From positions 1,550,001-1,614,000 of the forward strand of contig NZ_CP051130.1 of the NCBI RefSeq assembly GCF_013378055.1: a DNA stretch of 64,000 nucleotides. Direction: 5' to 3'. Below the pieces are notes generated by a model. That model was not told where the DNA came from, made no database searches, and saw nothing but the letters and a program-made list of their open reading frames with translations. This DNA comes from Parasphingopyxis sp. CP4 (GTDB lineage Bacteria > Pseudomonadota > Alphaproteobacteria > Sphingomonadales > Sphingomonadaceae). The position numbers and the translations under genes were made by a program. Positions within the stretch are counted from its first letter, which is position 1, and each line of letters begins with the position of its first letter. Of the stretch, positions 42,845 to 56,063 are shown piece after piece.

Positions 42845-42863
42845 TGGTGCCAGAAGAGGACTC
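42845..42863. repeat. Distal attachment site (partial tRNA-Leu copy)
   Basis: TGGTGCCAGAAGAGGACTC repeats the 3' end of tRNA-Leu(CAG) with one C missing from the CCC run. It marks the far end of the element. Confidence 0.8.
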
Positions 42864-42971
42864 TAAACTAGCCCTTATCTATCTAATATTTCACAGTAGT
42901 TATTTTGCCGTCCGACAAAATGCCCCCAAATATGCCCCAACAAGTGGCATTCGCCTATCCGCACTGATACG

Positions 42972-44675
42972 TCAGTGCGCTCTAAACGGCGCAAACTCTT
43001 CGAAACCTATCCTGCTCATATTCTGGGCGATTCCATAGACTGCTCTCATTGATCTTTTACTTTTCGAAGTGCCAAGCCATTGATAGGCAGACCCATCACT
43101 CCCAAAAAAATGGAAACCGGCGCGCCCTTGCGTTGTCTTAGCTCTGACGGTTTGCGAAGACTCTTCGGCATCGAAGTCAATCGATAAAAGATCGGAATAA
43201 GCTGACGAACTCAACGCGAAAATTTGATACTCAATCTCGCCGGCAACCTGCACCGGAACAACAAATACTGGTTGGTTCTCAACTTTCGACACCGCTTCCA
43301 ATCGCGCAAATATAAACGGCGAAGTTTTTGGCCGCCTAACCGTATCGCAAACAGCTTGCAGACAAATCAGTATACCCGCACCTTTCGGCATTCGTATAAT
43401 TGTGCCGGTTGTTAGGTTTGGACCGTAATCCTCACATCTTACGCGATGGCCGCGCGGCTGGAAACTCAACTGCGACTGTGAAGCAAACCTTGCGAGTTGT
43501 GCATTGGATTTCTGCAAATCCGCCTCAAACAAGGTCGAGATTCCTTTTCCGACTCCCTTTTTTTTAAACCCCTGGATTGCGTTTGCATGACCATTTTCCG
43601 AAAACCAATCCAAACCTTCTTGAATTAGAACTTTCGTTTGGTCAGGCGTAAATTCGACTTCGCCATTCGGGCTGTTCCCAGGAGTCTCAAAAGTGAGTGT
43701 CTTATCCTGACCGTTGAATTTGGTCTCAATGCTTCGTCCGATCGCGGACTTATCCAAAAAGGGTGAAATACTCTTTCTGATAACAGCCTTTTTTATCTCG
43801 CTTAGAACGAGGTCAATTCCGTAGTCTTCGGCTTCGGTCGGATTGTCTATGGTTGCCCTGTGGTGGAAGTATGGCCCATCCATGTTTCGATCAAAAACTT
43901 GCAGAACGTGATGTGTAACATCTCTGACTGACGCAATTGTGGCCATTGCCACGTTTCCGAGTAATCCCTCGGACAGGTTAGAAAACTCAACTAACAGTCG
44001 ATCGGGCAGATCTTTTTCGCCAACTTCAAATCTTTTTTGAACCGGCATAATCGGCCGGATTCCGTCCGTCTTCAGAAGACAAACAATTCTCAATCGGGTG
44101 AGGCCATCCGGTGACTCGCCTGTCACACACTCGATCGTGCGGGAAAACTCTCTATGGAGCTTCTCCCGAAGCGTTTCCTGTATTTGTCTGAGTATGGAAG
44201 CTCTACTTCTCAGAGATGTGTAGATTGATATTAGCCTCAATCGGCCATTTCTCCGAATATCTGAACGAACAATTTTTGTAATCAGCTTTTTTGCAAGATC
44301 ACCGCCGTCACTCTCAACGTCCCAATCAAGAGAGACTATATCAGCGTTTTCTGCTGCCCTAACTATCCGCTTAATAGAATTGTCGTCAGCTTTAATTCTC
44401 AAAACTGAGCAGATAATTCCCAGGTCCAAAGACCTTTCGATTAGTTTCTTTGCATTCAGCCTATTGCCAACTGGCGCGATCGCTGTTGGCGGGGAGGGAG
44501 ACTGGGGTAACGCTGGACGGGACGCCCCTCGCGCCGGCGCAACCATAGGCGCGGCCGGTTCGGGTTTCTCTTCAACATCAGCTTGCAAGGCCTCATCATC
44601 GATCACCAGCATCGTTTGAGCAAACAGACCTGCCGCATTCCTACGATCATCAGCGAAATTGGTTGGCCCCGACAA
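42972..44675 (-). CDS. Receiver-like protein, third gene of the MTase/GHKL operon
   Basis: This 567-residue protein probably starts at a TTG after GGGGGG, nine bases past the ATPase stop; an internal ATG at 44612 also fits. Residues 22-30 read MLVIDDEAL, the acidic first strand of a receiver domain. A Pro/Ala-rich insert of about 40 residues follows, then ADIVSLDWDVESDGGDLAKKLI, resembling the phosphoacceptor region, and RLISIYTSL as a later strand. The rest (about 190-567) is unrecognised and carries no known DNA-binding or nuclease motif. It resembles proteins with an atypical receiver domain (Response_reg_2-like) found next to HATPase genes. It is the likely partner of the ATPase. Confidence 0.65.
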   Translation of the reverse strand: MSGPTNFADDRRNAAGLFAQTMLVIDDEALQADVEEKPEPAAPMVAPARGASRPALPQSPSPPTAIAPVGNRLNAKKLIERSLDLGIICSVLRIKADDNSIKRIVRAAENADIVSLDWDVESDGGDLAKKLITKIVRSDIRRNGRLRLISIYTSLRSRASILRQIQETLREKLHREFSRTIECVTGESPDGLTRLRIVCLLKTDGIRPIMPVQKRFEVGEKDLPDRLLVEFSNLSEGLLGNVAMATIASVRDVTHHVLQVFDRNMDGPYFHHRATIDNPTEAEDYGIDLVLSEIKKAVIRKSISPFLDKSAIGRSIETKFNGQDKTLTFETPGNSPNGEVEFTPDQTKVLIQEGLDWFSENGHANAIQGFKKKGVGKGISTLFEADLQKSNAQLARFASQSQLSFQPRGHRVRCEDYGPNLTTGTIIRMPKGAGILICLQAVCDTVRRPKTSPFIFARLEAVSKVENQPVFVVPVQVAGEIEYQIFALSSSAYSDLLSIDFDAEESSQTVRAKTTQGRAGFHFFGSDGSAYQWLGTSKSKRSMRAVYGIAQNMSRIGFEEFAPFRAH

Positions 44676-44684
44676 AACGCCCCC

Positions 44685-47639
44685 CTAGCCTTTAGACTTA
44701 GTAATTAGGAATTTGGCCCCCTTGATCGTGCGATCATTATCAAGAGCCAGCGTGTATCCTTGCTTCTCCAATACCGCCCGGGAAATATACAATCCCATGC
44801 CTCTTCCTGAAGGCTTTCTCGTGAAACTCAGCTCGAATATATTCTCGCGATCGCGAAGTTCTACGCCTGGCCCATTGTCGTGAACGATGAATGATCCGTT
44901 CTTGTAGTCGAGCTGTATTTCTCTTTTTTTGTCTTTTTTGCCACTCAACCAATAGATTGCGTTGTCGATCAGATTCACGAAAACCGGATACATTGTCGAC
45001 GGATACTCGTGCACCTTTGCTTTGTTAAAAGCAGCCGTCGCACGCAGACGAACCTCATGCCGTTTGAAGCGGACCTCAAACAGATCTTCGAGAAAATCTG
45101 AAATGTTCTTCCCGGTAATGTCCACCCTGTTCTGATAAATTCGACGGTCAAGGGGAGTGAACAATGACAAGTAGCCATCCAGATGGTCAAAGCTGACGCG
45201 CATCTCTTGGTAAAGTGGTGCGAAATCCGGATTTATTTCGGCCCACTTGTTAAGCCGTCGAAATCCATTCCTAAGAGACCCCACGGTTTTTTCGAACTCA
45301 TGATTGATGGTGTTTATTGCCAAACCAATCTGGGCAAGTTCAAGGTTTCTGTCACTCTCTCGCCGAAGCTCTTCTACCTGAGATTCAAGGGCGTCGGTAA
45401 GTTCGATCGAACTATACCCCTCCTGCCAAGCCTGGCTAACCAGGGCTATCTGGTCTCGCAACCGAACCAAATTTGCTTGCTCAGCTTCAAATGCATCGGT
45501 CAACTTGTTTTCATACTCACCTCGAATCTTGGAGAATTTTTCTTCTTCCAGGTCCTTCGAATCTAAGTCCGATAAATCTTCGATTATCTGCTTTATTGTG
45601 GCATCAATCTCCGAAAAGCTCTTCCGTGCAATAGTTCGCACTTTTGTGCTTATTTCTTCTATCGATCCCTCGGCTTCGGACTGCAGGGCACCTAGAAGTT
45701 CCTTAGACTGCCGACCTTCAAACTTGATTTTCTCTTCTAATCGAATCGCTGGCTGAAGAGGAATTTTAGTTTCTTCAACTTTTTGCGAAATAATCCGCTC
45801 TAGCTCTCGTTCACGAGGAGCTATTATCTCCTCCTCTACGTGCTGAAACTCTGCAAAGTAGGATGCCCATTCTCCTCGCATTTGTGCGCTTGTCACAAGG
45901 CCAGGAGGTTTCTCAATGGTGATTCTGGCTCGAATTGCTCCAACTTTCGCTAGCTGCTCTTTTTCCAGGCGAAGGAAGGAAAGCGCTTTCGTCTGCGGTG
46001 ACGACTTCCTTCTTGATAAACTATCAAGCTTCGAGTTCGTTTCCGCCAACAAATCGTCCATCTCTTTCGTCAGCAAATTCGCGTCATGATTTTCAAAAAA
46101 GTCGTTCAATTGGCGAGTCAGTTTGGCCTTTCTTGCGTTACGTTTCTGTTCGCTCGCTTTTCTGATTTCATGGAGACGTTCGAACTCGGCTCTCCGACCA
46201 ATGAAGCTCTCAGAAAACTGGCCTGATTGCCTAAAAAAATCTCCGGCGGTTTGAATGAAGAAGTTGATCAAAATCGAACGAAACTCTCGGAATGCGAGAT
46301 TTTCTCTGAATCCTTCGCGGCCCGCTTTCTCCATCAAATGTGGATTCTGAGCGCCCGTCAGATCTATGGCCCCCATAATTCGTCGATAAGAATAGATGTA
46401 GTAAGCGGCACCCTGTGAACGTCTTTGTTCAATGTGCAGGAAGTCGTAATCAGAATCGCCGTAGGGCTGAACTCTGATTCCATCCCGGTAGATGTAAAGA
46501 CCACCAATACGTTCCAACTTCTTTTGAATTTGAACATACTCGTCCGGCGGGACTAACGAATTTCGTGCTTGGCCTTGAAGATACGCAAATGAAAAATTGA
46601 ATGGTCCACACTGCGTACGCCGTCCTTTTGAATCGGACCAGTTTAATACGTATGGTTCAGGCTCAGTTTGGTAGATCGCTACCTCACCCTGGAACTGCCC
46701 ATACTCGTCGAACCTCCCAGTGAAATGGTGGTCGACCATCTCATATTCATCCGGTGTGAAGAAAGCTTTATTGCCGATTACCTCAATTGGATCACCTTCG
46801 TCTCTGTGATCGCGAACGCGAGTTTCGATCACCGGTTTGGCATGACCCGGCGACATTGTGTTTGTGAATCCAATTAGACTTCTTTGAAATCGAGTAACGC
46901 CGTTCTCCTCATCATCGAGATCGCTCTCGATTATGTCATCGGCCGGGCGAATGAAAAAGTGAGTCCCGCAGCCTTTACCAGTCAAATTTGGATCGCCAAG
47001 AAATTCGAAATACGCGCTCGGATCGATGTCAAACGCATCCATTTCTTTTGCAATTTTCGCGATTTGACTCGCAAGGGACTTTTTCGACACTTCATTTAGC
47101 GCGTCTCGAGCTTCCCCGACCATCTCTAATACATCTTCTTTGGTCGGCAACGTTCCTCCTTTGATTTCTCGAACAGGAATCACGGCGTCTGAAATGTCCA
47201 ATCCAGGTAATTCGAACCAGCCCCAATGCACGTATGCAACGACCGTTTTCTTATGGGGAACTCCTTTTACTCGAGCTCGTGTGATGACAAGAACCTGAGG
47301 TCCGATAAGAGCGATGGCAAGACGACCAATGCCTTTTTCCCCCAAGATGGGTCTTTTCTTTTTCTTTCCGTCCGAGGGAGGCGGCTTTAACTCTCCGCCT
47401 TTTAGCTTGCTGTCTGTTCCGAGTGTAAGCCAACGTTTCTCGAAATCCTCAACCGTCATTCCGAGACCATCATCTCTCAAGACAAACAGTCTATCTTCAC
47501 GATAATAATCCACCTCGACGGTGTTGGCGTATGCGTCATGAGCATTCTTGAATAGCTCACTGATCGCTGTCGGTATGCCAGCAATTTGCTGACGACCCAG
47601 CATATCAACAGTTCTGGCGCTGACATTAAACTTGGCCAT
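44685..47639 (-). CDS. Dual GHKL ATPase: MORC/Hsp90-like N-terminus with histidine-kinase-like C-terminus
   Basis: This 984-residue protein has an N-terminal GHKL ATPase (N-box ELFKNAHDA near residues 29-36, DDGLGM at 56-61, GEKGIGR at 100-106) of the kind found in MutL/MORC-like restriction-associated proteins. A long charged coiled-coil region (about 480-780) follows. A second GHKL module (about 790-984) has an H-box-like INHEFEKTVGSLRNGF, N-box NLIDNAIYWL, DNGPGV and GRGMGLYISR, as in sensor kinases. It starts five bases after the methyltransferase gene and ends nine before the receiver-like gene. Dimerising sensing ATPase in a defence operon is the inferred role. Confidence 0.8.
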   Translation of the reverse strand: MAKFNVSARTVDMLGRQQIAGIPTAISELFKNAHDAYANTVEVDYYREDRLFVLRDDGLGMTVEDFEKRWLTLGTDSKLKGGELKPPPSDGKKKKRPILGEKGIGRLAIALIGPQVLVITRARVKGVPHKKTVVAYVHWGWFELPGLDISDAVIPVREIKGGTLPTKEDVLEMVGEARDALNEVSKKSLASQIAKIAKEMDAFDIDPSAYFEFLGDPNLTGKGCGTHFFIRPADDIIESDLDDEENGVTRFQRSLIGFTNTMSPGHAKPVIETRVRDHRDEGDPIEVIGNKAFFTPDEYEMVDHHFTGRFDEYGQFQGEVAIYQTEPEPYVLNWSDSKGRRTQCGPFNFSFAYLQGQARNSLVPPDEYVQIQKKLERIGGLYIYRDGIRVQPYGDSDYDFLHIEQRRSQGAAYYIYSYRRIMGAIDLTGAQNPHLMEKAGREGFRENLAFREFRSILINFFIQTAGDFFRQSGQFSESFIGRRAEFERLHEIRKASEQKRNARKAKLTRQLNDFFENHDANLLTKEMDDLLAETNSKLDSLSRRKSSPQTKALSFLRLEKEQLAKVGAIRARITIEKPPGLVTSAQMRGEWASYFAEFQHVEEEIIAPRERELERIISQKVEETKIPLQPAIRLEEKIKFEGRQSKELLGALQSEAEGSIEEISTKVRTIARKSFSEIDATIKQIIEDLSDLDSKDLEEEKFSKIRGEYENKLTDAFEAEQANLVRLRDQIALVSQAWQEGYSSIELTDALESQVEELRRESDRNLELAQIGLAINTINHEFEKTVGSLRNGFRRLNKWAEINPDFAPLYQEMRVSFDHLDGYLSLFTPLDRRIYQNRVDITGKNISDFLEDLFEVRFKRHEVRLRATAAFNKAKVHEYPSTMYPVFVNLIDNAIYWLSGKKDKKREIQLDYKNGSFIVHDNGPGVELRDRENIFELSFTRKPSGRGMGLYISRAVLEKQGYTLALDNDRTIKGAKFLITKSKG

Positions 47640-47644
47640 AGGTA

Positions 47645-48691
47645 TCAGCCCAACCTTTCAGTTGAATGCTGCATACAAGTATCTCCAAGAACCTTAGCCA
47701 ACCTAACAGGAACGGCATTGCCGATCTGTTGAGCCGTTTCGTTGGGCGTTCCGCAGAAGATGAAATCATCGTCGAAAGTTTGAAGCCGTGCTGCCTCCCG
47801 CACGCTAATCGCTCTGGCTTGAGTAGGGTGTCCAAATCTTCCATTCGACAAACTGATACAGCGTGTCGTCATAGCGGCTGCGGGTCGATCCTTGTGCAAA
47901 CGACCATAGACATCTGTGTGGCCGCCATGGTTCTGGTGGCATCGAAGTTTCAAATCTTCAGGCCAGTCCAATCGCCCCCCACCTTCTGGTGTTGCGTCAA
48001 TTCGTTTTAGGTTCAAATCTGAGAGATTCGCAGCTACATGATTTGGAATATCAGGATGTTTCTCGCCTGCCGCAATTGGGGGCAAGTCTCCAATCCAAGT
48101 CCAAACTTTCTCGTATTCTGGACAATCCCGCCCGGGGCCATGCGTTGGTTCCGGAATCGTGATTTCACCCATCAAACTTGCAACCATTACCAGCCGCCGA
48201 CGCGACTGAGGCACGCCATAGTCTTGTGATCTAAGGATTTGAACATCAATCCGATAGGACAGCGAACGTAATAGCTTCAGAAATCGGCCCAGTGCGCCCT
48301 GATCTTTCCTAACTTTCTGTAGCCCAGGAACATTTTCGACCAAAATATATTCTGGACGAAAAGCCCTAACGAACCGGTGCAGTTCGTCGAGCAAGTTCTT
48401 ACGCTTATCCCTAACCTTTTTGGCTGTGTTCTGCTTTGTGAATGGCTGACACGGCGCGCACGCGGCGAACATCAGCGGGACGGTTCGATCCCGCGGCAGC
48501 AATGGCACCAAGTCATAGTATTGGAACGTCTGAATATCGGCTTCAAAAAAGCAAGCTTCTGGAAAATTCCGCTCAAAAGTCCGGCCCGCTTCAGGATCAA
48601 AATCAATGCCAGCGACAATTGACATTCCGGCTTCTCGAAGGCCGGCACTGGTCCCTCCGCATCCACAAAAAAAGTCCACAACATCAATCAT
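47645..48691 (-). CDS. DNA (cytosine-5-)-methyltransferase
   Basis: This 348-residue enzyme has motif I DFFCGCGGTSAG (residues 6-17), the catalytic APCQPF with Cys81, the ENVPG motif at 119-123 and a C-terminal IGNAVPVRLA. It methylates C5 of cytosine in a specific DNA site; the target cannot be read from sequence. The chain is short and complete, with no fused nuclease. It leads the operon with the GHKL ATPase and receiver-like genes. Its likely job is marking self DNA, and no classical restriction enzyme is adjacent. Confidence 0.93.
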   Translation of the reverse strand: MIDVVDFFCGCGGTSAGLREAGMSIVAGIDFDPEAGRTFERNFPEACFFEADIQTFQYYDLVPLLPRDRTVPLMFAACAPCQPFTKQNTAKKVRDKRKNLLDELHRFVRAFRPEYILVENVPGLQKVRKDQGALGRFLKLLRSLSYRIDVQILRSQDYGVPQSRRRLVMVASLMGEITIPEPTHGPGRDCPEYEKVWTWIGDLPPIAAGEKHPDIPNHVAANLSDLNLKRIDATPEGGGRLDWPEDLKLRCHQNHGGHTDVYGRLHKDRPAAAMTTRCISLSNGRFGHPTQARAISVREAARLQTFDDDFIFCGTPNETAQQIGNAVPVRLAKVLGDTCMQHSTERLG

Positions 48692-48859: not shown

Positions 48860-49501
48860 TCAGGCTAGATTTCGTTCAATGGCGCGACTTAGCTCGTTTT
48901 CGCATTCGATACGCAATAACTCATGGCGAGCTTTGTGTCTGGCAAACGTGGTTCGCCACATGCCCTTTGGACGCTGCAGGGGGGCATCGTAGCCAACTCT
49001 GCTACCCAAACGACGTTGCAGCTTCTGGAGCTTCGTATACGGCCGGTAACAGGCACTCTCGCGCTGTGACTGGTATCCGAGTTGCCATGATGCTCGACTG
49101 GCAAATGTGGCGGCACCGACTGGACAATACAGCTTTTGGCAACGTAAGCCGTTGAGAGGACACTCTATCCACCATCGCCGACCACCGAAATGAGGCTCCG
49201 TAAAGACAAGACCAAAAACCTGACGGCGTTCGCGCCTGTCGCCAGTCGAGCGGTCCAAGAACGTGAACTGTAATGCTAAGTTGGAATCGTTGAGATCCCG
49301 CATGTCGCATTCAAAACGGATGCAAGCCAACTGCTCTCCATCGCTTTTCCATTGCAACGTTCCTGAGATGTATGAGCCAACCACAGCAAACCCACTCCGG
49401 CACAAATGGGCAATATCAATTGAATAGGCGTTCTCGGCGATAGGCCTTCCGACATGCCGTCCTGAACCAGTTCCTCCCACTTTCTTCCACCTCCTTTGCA
49501 C
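48860..49501 (-). CDS. Hypothetical protein of a zinc-ribbon family, zinc ligands mostly lost
   Basis: This 213-residue protein matches a family common on alphaproteobacterial mobile elements: GGTGSGRHVGRPIAENAYSI at the start, FGGRRWWIECP in the middle, YQSQRES and RPKGMWRTTFARH at the end. In the family the middle carries two CxxC-type pairs. Here they read CPLNG and FASRAS, so three of the expected cysteines are replaced, which suggests decay or a metal-free variant. The family function is not known to me. Confidence 0.65.
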   Translation of the reverse strand: MQRRWKKVGGTGSGRHVGRPIAENAYSIDIAHLCRSGFAVVGSYISGTLQWKSDGEQLACIRFECDMRDLNDSNLALQFTFLDRSTGDRRERRQVFGLVFTEPHFGGRRWWIECPLNGLRCQKLYCPVGAATFASRASWQLGYQSQRESACYRPYTKLQKLQRRLGSRVGYDAPLQRPKGMWRTTFARHKARHELLRIECENELSRAIERNLA

Positions 49502-49843: not shown

Positions 49844-50242
49844 CTATAGCGGCCTCCATCTAGCGAACTCGCGTGTAGGCGTTTGGTCATTCGTTCTCTC
49901 CCAGGTCAATGCCCATTCTGTAGCCCGACTAGTGCTAGGATCTTTCACATTGAAACCTCCCTGCTTGACTGCAGTTAGGAACCCTTTTTCAATAAGCTCT
50001 TTGAAGTAACGGCCGGCTGTATCTTTGTCAGAAATGTTGATTGCCACACATGCTTGCCGAACGCTCATAACTATACGCCCGTTGTTTCGGCCGTTATATT
50101 TTCTGATCACTTCGACCAGAAGCGCGCGGGGTCCAGCCTTAAGGCTCCGATATGCAGCGCTGTCCTGCACGGAATGAGGTAGGCGCGTGAATGTGCGTTT
50201 GTTGCGGCCTTTTCTGTTTGGCTTCCTGTTGTGATTTGTCAC
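49844..50242 (-). CDS. Helix-turn-helix replication-type protein, probably C-terminally truncated
   Basis: This 132-residue protein starts at GTG, with a very basic N-terminus (NRKPNRKGRNKR). A winged-helix region follows, with LKAGPRALLVEVIRKYNGRNNGRI, SVRQACVAINISDKDTAGRYF and RATEWALTWE. It belongs to a group often found on integrative elements and plasmids of this bacterial class. Relatives continue past the PTREFARW motif, whereas this copy stops three codons later, exactly at the repeat-rich stretch. It may be an inactivated gene. Confidence 0.55.
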   Translation of the reverse strand: MTNHNRKPNRKGRNKRTFTRLPHSVQDSAAYRSLKAGPRALLVEVIRKYNGRNNGRIVMSVRQACVAINISDKDTAGRYFKELIEKGFLTAVKQGGFNVKDPSTSRATEWALTWERTNDQTPTREFARWRPL

Positions 50243-50530: not shown

Positions 50531-51385
50531 TCAACGTTCCCCGTTGCGCCAAGGGTATCCTAAAGGGTGGATTGCCCGAATTAAGTTCACCCTTACCTCT
50601 TCGATACGCTCCCGGCGCGCCTCCTTCAGCAACCCGGTAAGATTTGGCACTTTCTCGATCCGCAACGTGAGGCAGGCAATCCGGTTAAAAAAATTCGCCC
50701 ATGGGCCCAGTCTTGGCTCACCATTTTCATCTGGCCAGTTATTGATCGTTGCCTCTCTTCCATAAGCTTTCTCGAAGATGAGCGCCAACTCGCGCGCAAA
50801 AGCTAACCGGCGCTTTCTCTTTTCGGCAGACCGCCAGCGAGGAGGATCATCCCGGTTGCAAAGAGCATCGGATGCTGCGCGCATATAGTCCTCCAGCTCA
50901 AGCATCCCGCACACCATTCTACGAAACTTTCGCCAGTCCGCAGATCCCGATGCAATCTCCTTACTACTTTCGACCCAGCAACCTTTCTTGACCGCATCCA
51001 ATCGATCCAAAGCGTCAAACTCAATGCTCTTCGGCAATTCCGTGTCGAGTCGCTCGTCCTGATCATCATACCGGCTGTATTGGCGGAAAACGCTTTCGGC
51101 CCAGCTGCTCCGCGCGGCGAAAAGGGTCTTAGCATTTGCGATCGCATCGGCGATTGATTGAATTTCTCGCCTAACAGCATGTTGACCCGGATACTCGTCT
51201 ATCTCTTCCTCGGTGCCAATCGAGCAAAAGAATGCCTTGCGAATAGATCCTGCTAGCCAGCGACTGCTACGCTCTGTCGGCAACTCAAAATCCCTAAGGG
51301 CGAATTCGACCGATTCCGGCGTAATATGCTGAAACCAATCGAGCTGATTGGAGAGCCAAGAAACATGATCCCCGGTTTCACTCAA
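50531..51385 (-). CDS. Hypothetical protein coupled to the integrase
   Basis: This 284-residue soluble protein starts at a TTG overlapping the integrase stop (TTGA). It is charged and helix-rich, with a tryptophan-rich stretch (WPDENGEPRLGPWANFFNRI) and a basic C-terminus. I do not recognise any domain. Its position between the integrase and the AlpA-type gene suggests a role in the life cycle of the element rather than as cargo. Confidence 0.65.
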   Translation of the reverse strand: MSETGDHVSWLSNQLDWFQHITPESVEFALRDFELPTERSSRWLAGSIRKAFFCSIGTEEEIDEYPGQHAVRREIQSIADAIANAKTLFAARSSWAESVFRQYSRYDDQDERLDTELPKSIEFDALDRLDAVKKGCWVESSKEIASGSADWRKFRRMVCGMLELEDYMRAASDALCNRDDPPRWRSAEKRKRRLAFARELALIFEKAYGREATINNWPDENGEPRLGPWANFFNRIACLTLRIEKVPNLTGLLKEARRERIEEVRVNLIRAIHPLGYPWRNGER

Positions 51386-52611
51386 ACCCTATTCCCTTGC
51401 CGATCGAACGGAACAACCTCACCCCCCTCTTTCAGGCGACTCAGATAGTCACTCCACCATTGCAGCATCTGGACCCGCTCATCCCAATAGTTGCCACGAC
51501 TATACGCGCCACGCACTGCATCGCTGTCTCCATGCGACAACGCGCGTTCTATGGCATCAGGATTCCACTTGCCGCTTTCATTCAGAAATGTTGACGCGGT
51601 CGCGCGAAAGCCGTGCGCTGTCACCTCGTCCTTCGTGAAACCCATGCGCCGCAATGCGGTATTGACCGTATTCTCACTCATAGGCCGATTGGGCGTGGAG
51701 AATGACGGAAAGACATACCTGCCGCCGCCAGATATCTTCTTCAGTTCGCCAAGCAAGGACAGCACCTGACTGGAAAGCGGGACGGCATGAGGGCGCCTTG
51801 CTTTCATCTTTCCTGCTGGAATGCGCCAGATAGCGGCATCCAAATCAATTTCCTCCCATTCGGCATGACGCAATTCTCCGGGACGCACAAAGACCTGAGG
51901 TGTTATTTGAAGGGCAAATTTCGTGATGGGGTGCCCATCATAATCATCAATCGCCCTAAGGAGAGCGCCGAGTTTTCCTGGAACAAGAACGGCAGCATAG
52001 TGCTTAGGCTTAGGCGTCACCAAAGCGCCACGGAGTGCAGCGGCCGGATCGTGCTGGCCGCGCCCTGTCCAGATGGCATAGCGGAACACCCTACTGGCAA
52101 AGCCACGACATTTCTTAGCAGTTTCATAGGTGCCCTTGGCTTCTAGCCTGCGCAATGCGGCAAGAAGCATCTGCGGATCGACATCCGCAATCGGTATCTT
52201 GCCAATCGCCGGCGACAGCAGCCTCAAATGCCATCGTGCCTTTTCAATCGTGCGCCTTGCCCTGCCTTCGCTCACCATTTTCTTTTCGATAAATTCCAAA
52301 GCAATTGCTGCAAATGTGTTGGCAGCTTCAAATTGGGCGGTAGCCTTCAGCTTCTTGCGGTGAACCGACGGATCGATGCCTTCGTTCAATTGCCCTCTGG
52401 CTTCAGCAAGAAGCTCGCGAGCCTTGGCCAAACTGACCTCAGGCCAGGCTCCCAGTGCGAGCCGCTTCTCCTTGCCGGACACACGATATTTCCAGCGCCA
52501 CAATTTGGAACCATTAGGAAAAACCTCGATATACAGCCCTCTACCATCGGCCCTCTTGAATGGCTTGTAGGCAGGTTTGAAGGCCCTAATCTCTGCGGCG
52601 GTTAGTGCCAT
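51382..52611 (-). CDS. P4-type tyrosine integrase
   Basis: This 409-residue integrase catalyses insertion at tRNA-Leu. It has the N-terminal arm-binding DUF4102-type region (DGRGLYIEVFPNGSKLWRWK, RLALGAWPEVSLAKAR), a core-binding domain and a catalytic domain with RPGELRHAEWEEI, HGFRATASTFLNE, the HGD segment and the tyrosine in AYSRGNYWDERVQML. All catalytic residues appear intact. The ATG at 52611 is chosen over a start 29 codons upstream. It lies 177 bases from the tRNA attachment site. Confidence 0.95.
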   Translation of the reverse strand: MALTAAEIRAFKPAYKPFKRADGRGLYIEVFPNGSKLWRWKYRVSGKEKRLALGAWPEVSLAKARELLAEARGQLNEGIDPSVHRKKLKATAQFEAANTFAAIALEFIEKKMVSEGRARRTIEKARWHLRLLSPAIGKIPIADVDPQMLLAALRRLEAKGTYETAKKCRGFASRVFRYAIWTGRGQHDPAAALRGALVTPKPKHYAAVLVPGKLGALLRAIDDYDGHPITKFALQITPQVFVRPGELRHAEWEEIDLDAAIWRIPAGKMKARRPHAVPLSSQVLSLLGELKKISGGGRYVFPSFSTPNRPMSENTVNTALRRMGFTKDEVTAHGFRATASTFLNESGKWNPDAIERALSHGDSDAVRGAYSRGNYWDERVQMLQWWSDYLSRLKEGGEVVPFDRQGNRV

Positions 52612-52788
52612 TAGTGGGTATTCCCCCTGTTGACACGTCGGCGCAGCCCCTCGAATGCCCCCAACCATGCCCCTGAATGGCGCGGGTTTTGGGGGCATGA
52701 CCAGAGATGTCCTGAAACAGCCATGGAATGGAGATGCCCTGAGTTCTCAGGTTTTGCAAGCAGTCTGGGATACTGAGACACACACTGC

Positions 52789-52808
52789 TGGTGCCCAGAA
52801 GAGGACTC
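52789..52808. repeat. Proximal attachment site within tRNA-Leu 3' end
   Basis: TGGTGCCCAGAAGAGGACTC, the reverse complement of the tRNA-Leu 3' end, matches the repeat at 42845 apart from one extra C. Confidence 0.8.
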
Positions 52809-52876
52809 GAACCTCCACGTCCGCAAGGGACACCAGCACCTGAAGCTGGCGCGTCTACCAATTCCGCCATCTGGGC
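52789..52876 (-). tRNA. tRNA-Leu (CAG)
   Basis: An 88-base class II tRNA with long variable arm: acceptor GCCCAGA pairs with TCTGGGC, anticodon loop TTCAGGT gives CAG, the T-arm has GGTTCGAGTCC, and CCA is encoded. It is the integration site of the element and remains intact. Confidence 0.97.
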
Positions 52877-53944: not shown

Positions 53945-53977
53945 TCCGGTCGGTCCGCCTGACCCAGGAGGATGGTC

Positions 53978-55042
53978 GTGGCTGATACCAACAGCGCGTC
54001 TCGCCCGGTCGTTTTCATCAGCCATCACAGCTCGCATGAGCAATCCGCACGGCGCCTCAAAAAGATACTCGATCGCAATGGGTTGGCCGGCTGGATGGCT
54101 CCAGACGATGTACCGCCCGGCACGGCATTTGACGATGCGATCGTCAACCAACTCGGCAAGTCCGATGTGGTCGTGCTGCTGTTCAGCAAGGGATCGGATG
54201 CCTCACGCCATGTGAAGCGCGAGATGATCCTCGCCGATAATCAGGGCGTGCCCGTTTATCCGATCCGGCTCGAAGAAGTGCCAGCCGATGGACTTGCCTA
54301 TTGGCTGAACGACCATCAATGGATCGACTGGTTCGACGGCAAGGATGCAACGATCCAACGCGCGATCGATGCGATCCGCGAGCAGATCGCCGAGGCCGCC
54401 GGTGCCAGCCCGGATGCGATTGCGCCCGATGATGTACGCGGCTTTGCCGAACGCCTGCGCCGACCGCGCGGGTCTTACACGCGCAGCATCTGGCAGCGCC
54501 GCATCGGTTGGACAGCGCTTGCCGCCGGTGCGCTCGCCACCGCCTATGTCGCGGCCCCGCAGCTTGGCATTTCGGTCGGCGAGGAAGCCGCAGCTGAACC
54601 GTTAATCCGCGCAGGGTTATGGGAGACCCGGGTCGATGTCAGCCGGATCCTCCGCACCGAAAACCCCGATGCGGATGCCATGCGGCTTTGGGAAGCGGCC
54701 TTTGAATCCGAAGCACCGCAGGTGTGCGTCACGGCCGAAGAAGCGCAGATGCCGGGTATCGCCTTTTTCGATCCGGATGGCCGCAATCAATGTACGCTGG
54801 TCAACATCGCAATGGCCGACGGTAACTTCACTCTGGCCATGGAATGCCGGCCGAACAGCCTTGAGGGTGACAATCTCAACCTGGCGATGGACGGACAATA
54901 TACGACTGAGGGCTATGTCGCCGACGCTGAATATGCCTATGATCAAGATACGGATCGCGAATTTCGATTTCTCGTCCGCCAGACCGCCCGATATTTGGGG
55001 CCATGCGGCGATGAAGAGGATAGCGCGATAACAGGGGGATAG
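53978..55042 (+). CDS. TIR-domain membrane protein with DUF3617-like periplasmic domain
   Basis: This 354-residue protein starts at a GTG six bases after AGGAGG (an ATG two codons earlier would overlap that site). The N-terminal TIR domain covers about residues 8-130: VFISHHSS, GWMAPDDVPPG, SDVVVLLFSKGS and SRHVKREM, with Glu82 in the catalytic position of NAD-cleaving TIRs. One membrane helix follows near 180-197. The C-terminal domain reads GLWETRVDVSRI, CVTAEEAQMPG and NLAMDGQYTTEGYV, as in DUF3617. The fusion would put TIR in the cytoplasm and DUF3617 in the periplasm. It forms a pair with the next gene, four bases downstream. Confidence 0.82.
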   Translation: MADTNSASRPVVFISHHSSHEQSARRLKKILDRNGLAGWMAPDDVPPGTAFDDAIVNQLGKSDVVVLLFSKGSDASRHVKREMILADNQGVPVYPIRLEEVPADGLAYWLNDHQWIDWFDGKDATIQRAIDAIREQIAEAAGASPDAIAPDDVRGFAERLRRPRGSYTRSIWQRRIGWTALAAGALATAYVAAPQLGISVGEEAAAEPLIRAGLWETRVDVSRILRTENPDADAMRLWEAAFESEAPQVCVTAEEAQMPGIAFFDPDGRNQCTLVNIAMADGNFTLAMECRPNSLEGDNLNLAMDGQYTTEGYVADAEYAYDQDTDREFRFLVRQTARYLGPCGDEEDSAITGG

Positions 55043-55046
55043 TCTG

Positions 55047-56063
55047 ATGAGTGATGGTGGGGCTAAACGACAACCGACGGCGTTTATCAGTCATCACAGT
55101 TCGCAGGTGGAAACCGCACGTCGTTTGAAGGTCATCCTCAGTCATCACGGTATTATCGGCTGGATGGCACCCGACGATATCAATCCCGGCCAACCCTTCG
55201 ACAAGGCGATCGTGAACCAGGTTCGCCAATCCGATCTCATCATTTTGCTCTTTTGCGAACAATCGGACCAGTCACGCCATGTGAAGCGCGAGCTAATGAT
55301 GGCCGAAGACGCCGACAAGCTGATATTTCCGGTGCGACTGGAAGACAAGGCGGCGGACGGTCTCGCCTATTGGCTGAACGATTATCAATGGATCGACTGG
55401 TTTGACGGTGAGGATGATACGATCACCCGGATGATCGAGACGATCAAAAGTCAGGCCGATGAGCAAACCACTTCGCCCATCGCCAGCAGCACCGCACCAC
55501 CCTTGCAGCCGGCAGCCAGTGCGACTGCTTCAGCGCCGCCGGTCGCGCCCGCTCCTGCGCCGAGCTCGGGATCGCAATGGCCGGTGCCAATTGTATCGGC
55601 CGTAATTGTAGCCCTGATCATGCTTGTCGGCTTCTATTTCATGACGCGGGACGGCGATTCCGACGCGCCGGTCGAAACCGCCGCAGCCGAGACAGCCGAC
55701 GAAGATGCATCGGAAAATAGTGCGAACGACACGCCCGACCCGGCCCCCGCCACGACACCGCCACCCATGCCGACACCGATCACTACGCCGCCACCCGCCC
55801 TGCCCTCACCCGGCAATGGCGACTTTTATGTCGTGGTCGGCAGCTTCCAGCCTGGCGATCCGGCCGCAAACCAACGCGCCAGCGATTTCGAAGCCTGTTC
55901 CGGAATCACACCAATTGTTGGACCGTCCGATAGTTATGCCGGCTTTGCTCCGGGACTCATTGTCGTGATGGCCGGCGGATATTCCGATGCGCGGGCGGCC
56001 AATGCCGTACTGTCCCAATCACAATCCTGTGTGGTCGACGCCTTTATCCGGCAAGCGCGCTAG
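55047..56063 (+). CDS. TIR-domain membrane protein with SPOR-like periplasmic domain
   Basis: This 338-residue protein has an N-terminal TIR domain (residues 10-130, FISHHSSQVETARRLK, GWMAPDDINPG, SRHVKRELMM with Glu82). A Pro/Ala linker, a membrane helix at about 179-199 and an acidic Pro/Thr-rich stalk follow. The C-terminal region of 80 residues, DFYVVVGSFQPGDPAANQRA and LIVVMAGGYSDARAANAVL, resembles a SPOR peptidoglycan-binding domain. It is clearly a paralogue of the preceding gene in the TIR part but not in the periplasmic part. GGGGGA precedes the ATG. Confidence 0.82.
   Translation: MSDGGAKRQPTAFISHHSSQVETARRLKVILSHHGIIGWMAPDDINPGQPFDKAIVNQVRQSDLIILLFCEQSDQSRHVKRELMMAEDADKLIFPVRLEDKAADGLAYWLNDYQWIDWFDGEDDTITRMIETIKSQADEQTTSPIASSTAPPLQPAASATASAPPVAPAPAPSSGSQWPVPIVSAVIVALIMLVGFYFMTRDGDSDAPVETAAAETADEDASENSANDTPDPAPATTPPPMPTPITTPPPALPSPGNGDFYVVVGSFQPGDPAANQRASDFEACSGITPIVGPSDSYAGFAPGLIVVMAGGYSDARAANAVLSQSQSCVVDAFIRQAR

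Follow-up and report, generated by a model that had tools for sequence, protein, structure and literature searches.

A methylase, a dual-ATPase kinase and a receiver form a compact operon

Within a 64,000-nucleotide stretch of the Parasphingopyxis sp. CP4 genome (contig NZ_CP051130.1, positions 1,550,001 to 1,614,000; hereafter the window), three genes on the minus strand (42972-48691) lie almost end to end, separated by gaps of 5 and 9 bases. They encode a C5-cytosine DNA methyltransferase (the methylase), a histidine kinase (HK)-like protein with two GHKL ATPases (the kinase) and a response regulator (RR)-like protein (the receiver), and are listed with the neighboring features in Table 1. 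GC content is 47-51% at 43-49 kb, compared to 56-63% at 36-43 kb and 59-61% at 53-56 kb. This drop, together with an integrase gene and a tRNA-Leu repeat, bears out the claim of a preliminary description, made from the sequence alone, that the three genes are the A+T-rich cargo of an integrative element, in which they occupy about 5.7 of about 9.96 kb. The positions of the open reading frames (ORFs) likewise confirm the near contiguity noted there, and Pfam supports its reading of the proteins as a C5 methylase, an ATPase combining MORC/MutL-like and histidine-kinase-like modules, and a receiver-like partner. From the features of this locus and its relatives, we infer that the trio probably forms a phage-defence system.

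The three genes recur together in distant hosts

A profile scan of 84,980 species with the kinase alignment returned 492 relatives, of which we examined the best 80, counting a methylase if it scored above 120 bits within 6 kb. The complete trio is present in 73 of these 80 (methylase in 75, receiver in 76), and more sensitive profiles again found all three genes in 73. Co-localization in other genomes had been set beforehand as a test of the preliminary description; since the trio is complete in 73 of 80 relatives, it is not a chance neighborhood. It is widespread in bacteria and archaea, the hosts of the relatives including archaea, Bacteroidetes, Acidobacteria, Chloroflexi and many proteobacteria, and Escherichia coli has native copies.

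The order methylase-kinase-receiver is found in 29 of the 80 loci, and the same order is joined by a Vsr gene upstream (14), downstream (11), inverted downstream (8), between methylase and kinase (4) or inverted upstream (1); in six loci the methylase is inverted downstream, and seven are incomplete. In three of these seven (L051, L058, L068), the contig breaks off next to or within the kinase, on the side where the absent gene would lie. In three others (L031, L069, L076), it ends within the receiver or kinase or shortly behind it, and the 3-8 kb upstream hold no methylase, which may lie downstream, off the contig, or be absent. The last (L102) contains weak receiver fragments only.

Among 21 (pro)viral loci, nine of the 10 best carry the full trio (in L127 with the receiver in two ORFs) and one (L131) stops within the kinase; the remaining 11 match more weakly and lack a receiver match. 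Five of 204 plasmid records were examined, and the trio is present in three (L015-L017) and not in two (L018, L019). Of five further genome regions, L020-L022 carry the trio, L023 starts at the kinase, with the methylase side beyond its edge, and L024 is degraded. As a single query, the receiver of the window matched nothing in viral contigs or phages and two plasmid records. In a sample of 385 genomes of the class, its family, Response_reg_2, turned up in five, one of them the genome of the window. Other than the trio and Vsr, the most widespread neighbor families reach only six of 88 loci.

Pairwise protein distances over 69 loci, including the window and L021, correlate at 0.86 for kinase and receiver, 0.62 for kinase and methylase and 0.57 for receiver and methylase, the largest value in 999 permutations being 0.16. 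These correlations indicate joint inheritance and not contact, since genes that are linked and descend together produce values of this kind.

Two of the additional loci show variant arrangements. At L024:3972-13547, the degraded copy, methylase, kinase and receiver matches stand in separate frames with other ORFs between them. Plasmid L018:4340-10479 holds a sister arrangement of two N6_N4_Mtase-matching proteins, a 756-amino acid (aa) double-HATPase protein without a HEF_HK match and a 409-aa protein of no family, whose start looks receiver-like by eye.

Catalytic and phosphorelay residues are conserved

In an alignment of 26 methylases (24 of the 75 from relatives, plus those of the window and L021), the catalytic C81 (in PCQ), ENV 119-121, Q162, R164 and R166 are invariant, and the catalytic motifs are intact. 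The kinase alignment (64 of 77 relatives plus the window) comprises 65 sequences, and the layout of the protein is HATPase_c_3 (residues 24-123), a long middle part, the HEF_HK phospho-acceptor helix (770-835) and HATPase_c (882-978). All 65 share E28, N32, D56, G58, G60, K102, G103 and G105 in the N-terminal ATPase, H780 in HEF_HK, and N889, N893, G945, G947 and G949 in the C-terminal ATPase. E781 is conserved in 64, with Asp in one, and at the position of D921 the alignment has Asp in 41 sequences and Asn in the other 24. The kinase N-terminus also matches the BbrUII/HgiDII model NF050001 (residues 3-122; 68.8 bits against a cut-off of 550) and, partially, the PADLOC REase_II model PDLC03419 (residues 6-109); beyond this N-terminal GHKL likeness, no nuclease domain was recognized in the trio proteins.

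For the receiver, 67 of the 69 complete proteins among the 80 loci (L056 and L096 left out) were aligned with that of the window. PF19192 matches all 68, and D26, D117 and K202 are present in all 68, D27 and T153 in 63. In an AlphaFold 2 model (pLDDT 86.4, pTM 0.85), the third receiver strand (113-117) ends at D117, which we therefore took as the phospho-acceptor. Judged by these alignments, the phosphorelay residues are intact in both kinase and receiver.

The receiver ends in a conserved candidate output domain

The receiver consists of Response_reg_2 (~18-210), a helical middle (~211-402) and a beta-rich C-terminal domain (~420-567). The latter carries G424, C438 and C443 in all 68 proteins, R447 in 67 and D444 in 65 (C438-x4-C443-D444). 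When it was compared with solved folds by Foldseek, the top matches were the MazF toxins 9ikd_F, 6kyt_D and 6l2a (probability 0.99-1.00, TM-score by target 0.57-0.63, root-mean-square deviation [rmsd] 5.0-5.6, E 0.017-0.033), a likeness that is structural only and weak in E-value. A fold search against BFVD gave nothing below 0.001. In the VIA list, only receiver residues 17-235 are well tested, and the lack of other folds there says nothing.

Neither Pfam nor hhalign against controls supported membership of the C-terminus in MazF/PemK by sequence. PF19192 is the sole Pfam match of the window receiver at E up to 1, and PF02452 is not among the 25 families listed, of 31, for the 68 receivers. 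By hhalign, the C-terminus scored 10.3-14.2 against a PemK/MazF profile of 27 proteins, compared to 16.1 for the receiver region and 13.3 for the middle; a single divergent PemK used as seed gave no sequence support for the MazF fold either, and hmmsearch with a 32-member C-terminal profile found no MazF among Protein Data Bank sequences at E up to 10. A transcription factor was rejected, with no DNA-binding family in more than one of 68 receivers among the listed Pfam families, and neither these nor PADLOC-DB v2 contain a nuclease family that matches more than one. None of the libraries searched gives a function for the conserved candidate output domain, which lends itself to direct testing.

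Relation to described systems

HEF_HK (PF19191) and Response_reg_2 (PF19192) were defined by Bellieny-Rabelo et al. (2021, PMC8011034). In the accessible part of that computational description, the two gene families are linked in 91.6% of 644 regions, DNA_methylase and Vsr are frequent and restriction-modification (R-M) genes over-represented, HATPase_c_3 + HEF_HK + HATPase_c is the commonest kinase architecture (174 of 222), and Response_reg_2 is found in proteins without other known domains; phosphotransfer from kinase to receiver is a prediction there, and R-M regulation and sensing of nucleoside triphosphates (NTPs) are suggested. The preliminary description had called the operon a candidate undescribed defence system, and "undescribed" is not supported: that paper had already published the HK-like/RR-like pair together with its linkage to R-M genes, Vsr and C5 methylases, and public records list relatives under the annotation "response regulator receiver domain". 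The window trio shows the sequence features of 2021 that we compared, namely PF19192 with D26/D27, D117, T153 and K202 (the phospho-Asp being read from its strand position), HATPase_c_3 + HEF_HK + HATPase_c with a conserved His followed by Glu/Asp, and adjacent genes with a C5 methylase neighbor. Same three genes, group 1 architecture and linkage to DNA_methylase and R-M genes are common to both, and nothing essential differs, although the window copy lacks an adjacent Vsr and lies on a small integrative element. The accessible text of PMC8011034 contains no functional experiment and does not assign the receiver protein an output domain. New here are the linkage of all three genes in 73 of 80 relatives, the kinase-receiver divergence correlation of 0.86 and the intact phosphorelay residues.

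Other systems share single modules. Iyer et al. (2008, PMC2292703) place paraMORC ATPases in R-M operons that also encode Vsr and other nucleases; as far as the available text of that paper goes, these share with the trio an N-terminal GHKL ATPase that has cytosine methylases, and often Vsr, as neighbors, whereas the trio adds the histidine-kinase half and the receiver and has no helicase or recognized endonuclease. BbrUII/HgiDII-type enzymes resemble the GHKL module, while the rest of the 984-aa protein is unmatched. VcSduA (Shedu) is also a phage-defence protein with a GHKL ATPase, but in the accessible description it has its own DUF4263 nuclease and no methylase, kinase half or receiver (PMC12137116). 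HATPase and REC are among the domains of predicted, unvalidated systems in DefensePredictor (PMC13092281, accessible text), which may or may not include the trio.

The operon was described in the 2021 paper and is absent from PADLOC-DB v2. A catalogued PADLOC system was ruled out because no model matches the window receiver (four families match one of the 68 receivers each) and the ATPase has only partial REase_II matches. MADS, the methylation-associated defence system, is defined by a set of MAD genes; it was rejected, since only the 60-aa excisionase-like helix-turn-helix (HTH) protein of the element matches mad1, at 31.6 bits against a cut-off of 80, and no MAD model was found in the other seven proteins scanned (for the methylase, among the best 25 of 62 matches). 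Detocs is a defensive two-component system in which a phosphorelay drives anti-phage effectors; its sensor and effector domains are different ones, and it is not known to include a methylase.

A proposed phosphorelay and its alternatives

On balance, we lean toward a mobile, methylation-linked defence operon run by a cytoplasmic two-component-like relay, and the earlier idea of a restriction-like system wired as a two-component pathway is supported to this extent. The methylase would mark host DNA, and the N-terminal paraMORC-type ATPase of the 984-aa sensor would probably close on DNA or a DNA-bound complex, the trigger probably being incoming unmodified DNA. HEF_HK and the C-terminal HATPase would then autophosphorylate H780, and the phosphate would move to D117 of the receiver, freeing the C-terminal domain as the output. 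The outcome may resemble restriction, or infected cells may stop growing; on present data, restriction and abortive infection cannot be told apart. It is tempting to speculate, although we regard this as doubtful, that the receiver is a phosphorelay-gated effector whose C-terminal MazF/CcdB-like fold carries C-x4-C-D in place of the toxin active site, the operon acting by methylation-guarded abortive infection with a toxin and not a nuclease. If true, a toxin released by a paraMORC ATPase kinase would be a new mechanistic class.

Should the relay be real, it would connect the methylation marks on DNA with phosphorelay signaling by a histidine kinase and reveal a role for the bacterial relatives of eukaryotic MORC ATPases. 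To our knowledge, methylation-phosphorelay sensing of foreign DNA has not been established for restriction systems.

Several observations weigh against the relay-driven defence operon. In the six loci with the methylase inverted downstream, this protein is 33-35% identical to that of the window, compared to 39-49% for the kinase; judging from these sequences, the methylase looks like an exchangeable, looser partner of the trio, which makes a kinase recognizing one fixed mark unlikely. In E. coli CE0026f (L144), the trio is surrounded by insertion sequences with no clear defence genes. The best MazF-fold match of the output domain (E 0.017, rmsd 5.0) comes without sequence support, and Vsr (39/80) could serve to repair deaminated 5-methylcytosine instead of acting as an effector. 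Finally, literature searches found no phage, plasmid or methylation experiment on the trio.

An unlikely alternative is an R-M system with an unrecognized nuclease, in which the GHKL protein would act like MutL or paraMORC, looping DNA and recruiting a nuclease (Vsr in the loci that have it, one of the host's own or one hidden in the receiver), and the kinase half would only regulate. The paraMORC operons with Vsr and other nucleases (PMC2292703, accessible part) speak for it, as do the N-terminal matches to NF050001, far under the cut-off though these are, and to PDLC03419. The preliminary description had noted the absence of Vsr, which holds for the element, yet Vsr-like genes (>60 bits) are found in 39 of 80 relative loci, possibly an undercount because the profile was built on three sequences; by the same profile, 41 loci have no such match, and other neighbor families are rare. 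The genome's only Vsr match (C1:59619) directly follows a second C5 methylase (both within C1:58580-59834, outside the window) and, since it adjoins that gene near 58.6-59.8 kb, probably serves it. As for a nuclease hidden in the receiver, one of 68 receivers gave a stray match to the RNase Cas13-ApeA (E 0.0029), against the general lack of nuclease families noted above.

That the trio is instead a regulatory two-component system, sensing DNA state or nucleotide levels and controlling the linked methylase or host genes with no defence effector, appears rather improbable. The complete histidine-kinase and receiver active sites would suit it, as would the R-M regulation and NTP sensing proposed in 2021 (PMC8011034, accessible part), but the receivers show no recurrent DNA-binding family among the 25 of 31 Pfam families listed, and the mobility and R-M-like islands of the trio argue against it. 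Very unlikely, in our view, is selfish maintenance, in which methylase loss would trigger the kinase and a toxic output that retains the island, phage effects being secondary: the trio is the main cargo of a compact mobile element and R-M systems can be addiction modules (discussed in the accessible part of PMC8011034), but nothing here sets this apart from defence and a tyrosine-recombinase cluster accompanies only six of 88 loci (other integrase types not having been looked for).

The element and its tRNA-Leu site

The element measures ~9.96 kb, because the tRNA-Leu 3' end recurs at 42850-42869, and contains the integrase, the excisionase-like HTH protein, three uncharacterized proteins and the trio (~5.7 kb). 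In the eight element proteins scanned, Pfam recognized no conjugation genes, and nothing for replication beyond a weak Phage_rep_O match (E 0.22). No clean empty site was found among the nine congeners searched, in which the left flank is not conserved.

Table 1. Features of the trio and of the integrative element in the window
Feature	Coordinates	Strand	Basis
C5-cytosine DNA methyltransferase, first gene of trio	47645..48691	-	348 aa; PF00145 1.8e-56
HK-like protein, two GHKL ATPases	44685..47639	-	984 aa; PF13589 + PF19191 HEF_HK (7.3e-26) + PF02518
RR-like protein	42972..44675	-	567 aa, TTG start as called; PF19192 Response_reg_2 (4.9e-30)
tRNA-Leu (cag), integration site	52789..52876	-	ARAGORN
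Proximal attachment-site repeat, within tRNA-Leu 3' end	52795..52814	+	repeat comparison
Distal attachment-site repeat, imperfect copy of tRNA-Leu 3' end, just past receiver gene	42850..42869	+	18/20 identical to 52795-52814
Tyrosine integrase, adjoining tRNA-Leu	51382..52698	-	PF22022, PF13356, PF00589
Hypothetical protein of element	50531..51385	-	no family at E up to 1
Excisionase/AlpA-like HTH protein, 60 aa	50323..50505	-	PF12728 4.6e-11, TIGR01764 1.7e-10
Small element protein	49844..50242	-	weak matches only: HTH_36 0.098, Phage_rep_O 0.22
Hypothetical protein, GSGRxxGRP type, between trio and element backbone	48860..49501	-	no family at E up to 1

Integrase ORFs lie beside the same tRNA-Leu in the congeners G002 (L120) and G008 (L121), and none does in G006. 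The L120 integrase shares 67% DNA identity with that of the window over 454 bases, and in L121 a block of 69.5% DNA identity runs across integrase, tRNA and right flank. Behind the integrase, L120 carries a type I R-M set and L121 an Eco57I/MmeI-type protein; the tRNA-Leu site is an integration hotspot with exchangeable R-M cargo. In E. coli, a partial DNA match was found in 212 of 5,426 genomes (7-13% of the query among the 30 matches listed), and both copies examined (SE15, CE0026f) carry the trio. In SE15 (L145:10681-16756), it stands on a tRNA-Leu island with Fic, an adjacent gene annotated as a phosphorothioated-DNA-binding restriction endonuclease, ArdC and a MobH relaxase.

Three minor observations concern the element and its surroundings. 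An 18/20 direct repeat (42919-42938 and 52654-52673) lies near both element ends and possibly represents integrase arm sites. The GSGRxxGRP protein of the element appears, by eye, to be related to one in the element of congener G008 (L121:10227-10853), with no family found. Outside the element, just past tRNA-Leu, two tandem proteins (53972-55042 and 55047-56063, plus strand) have a TIR-like start (FISHHSS..., by eye), in a region that aligns partly to the congener loci L120 and L121.
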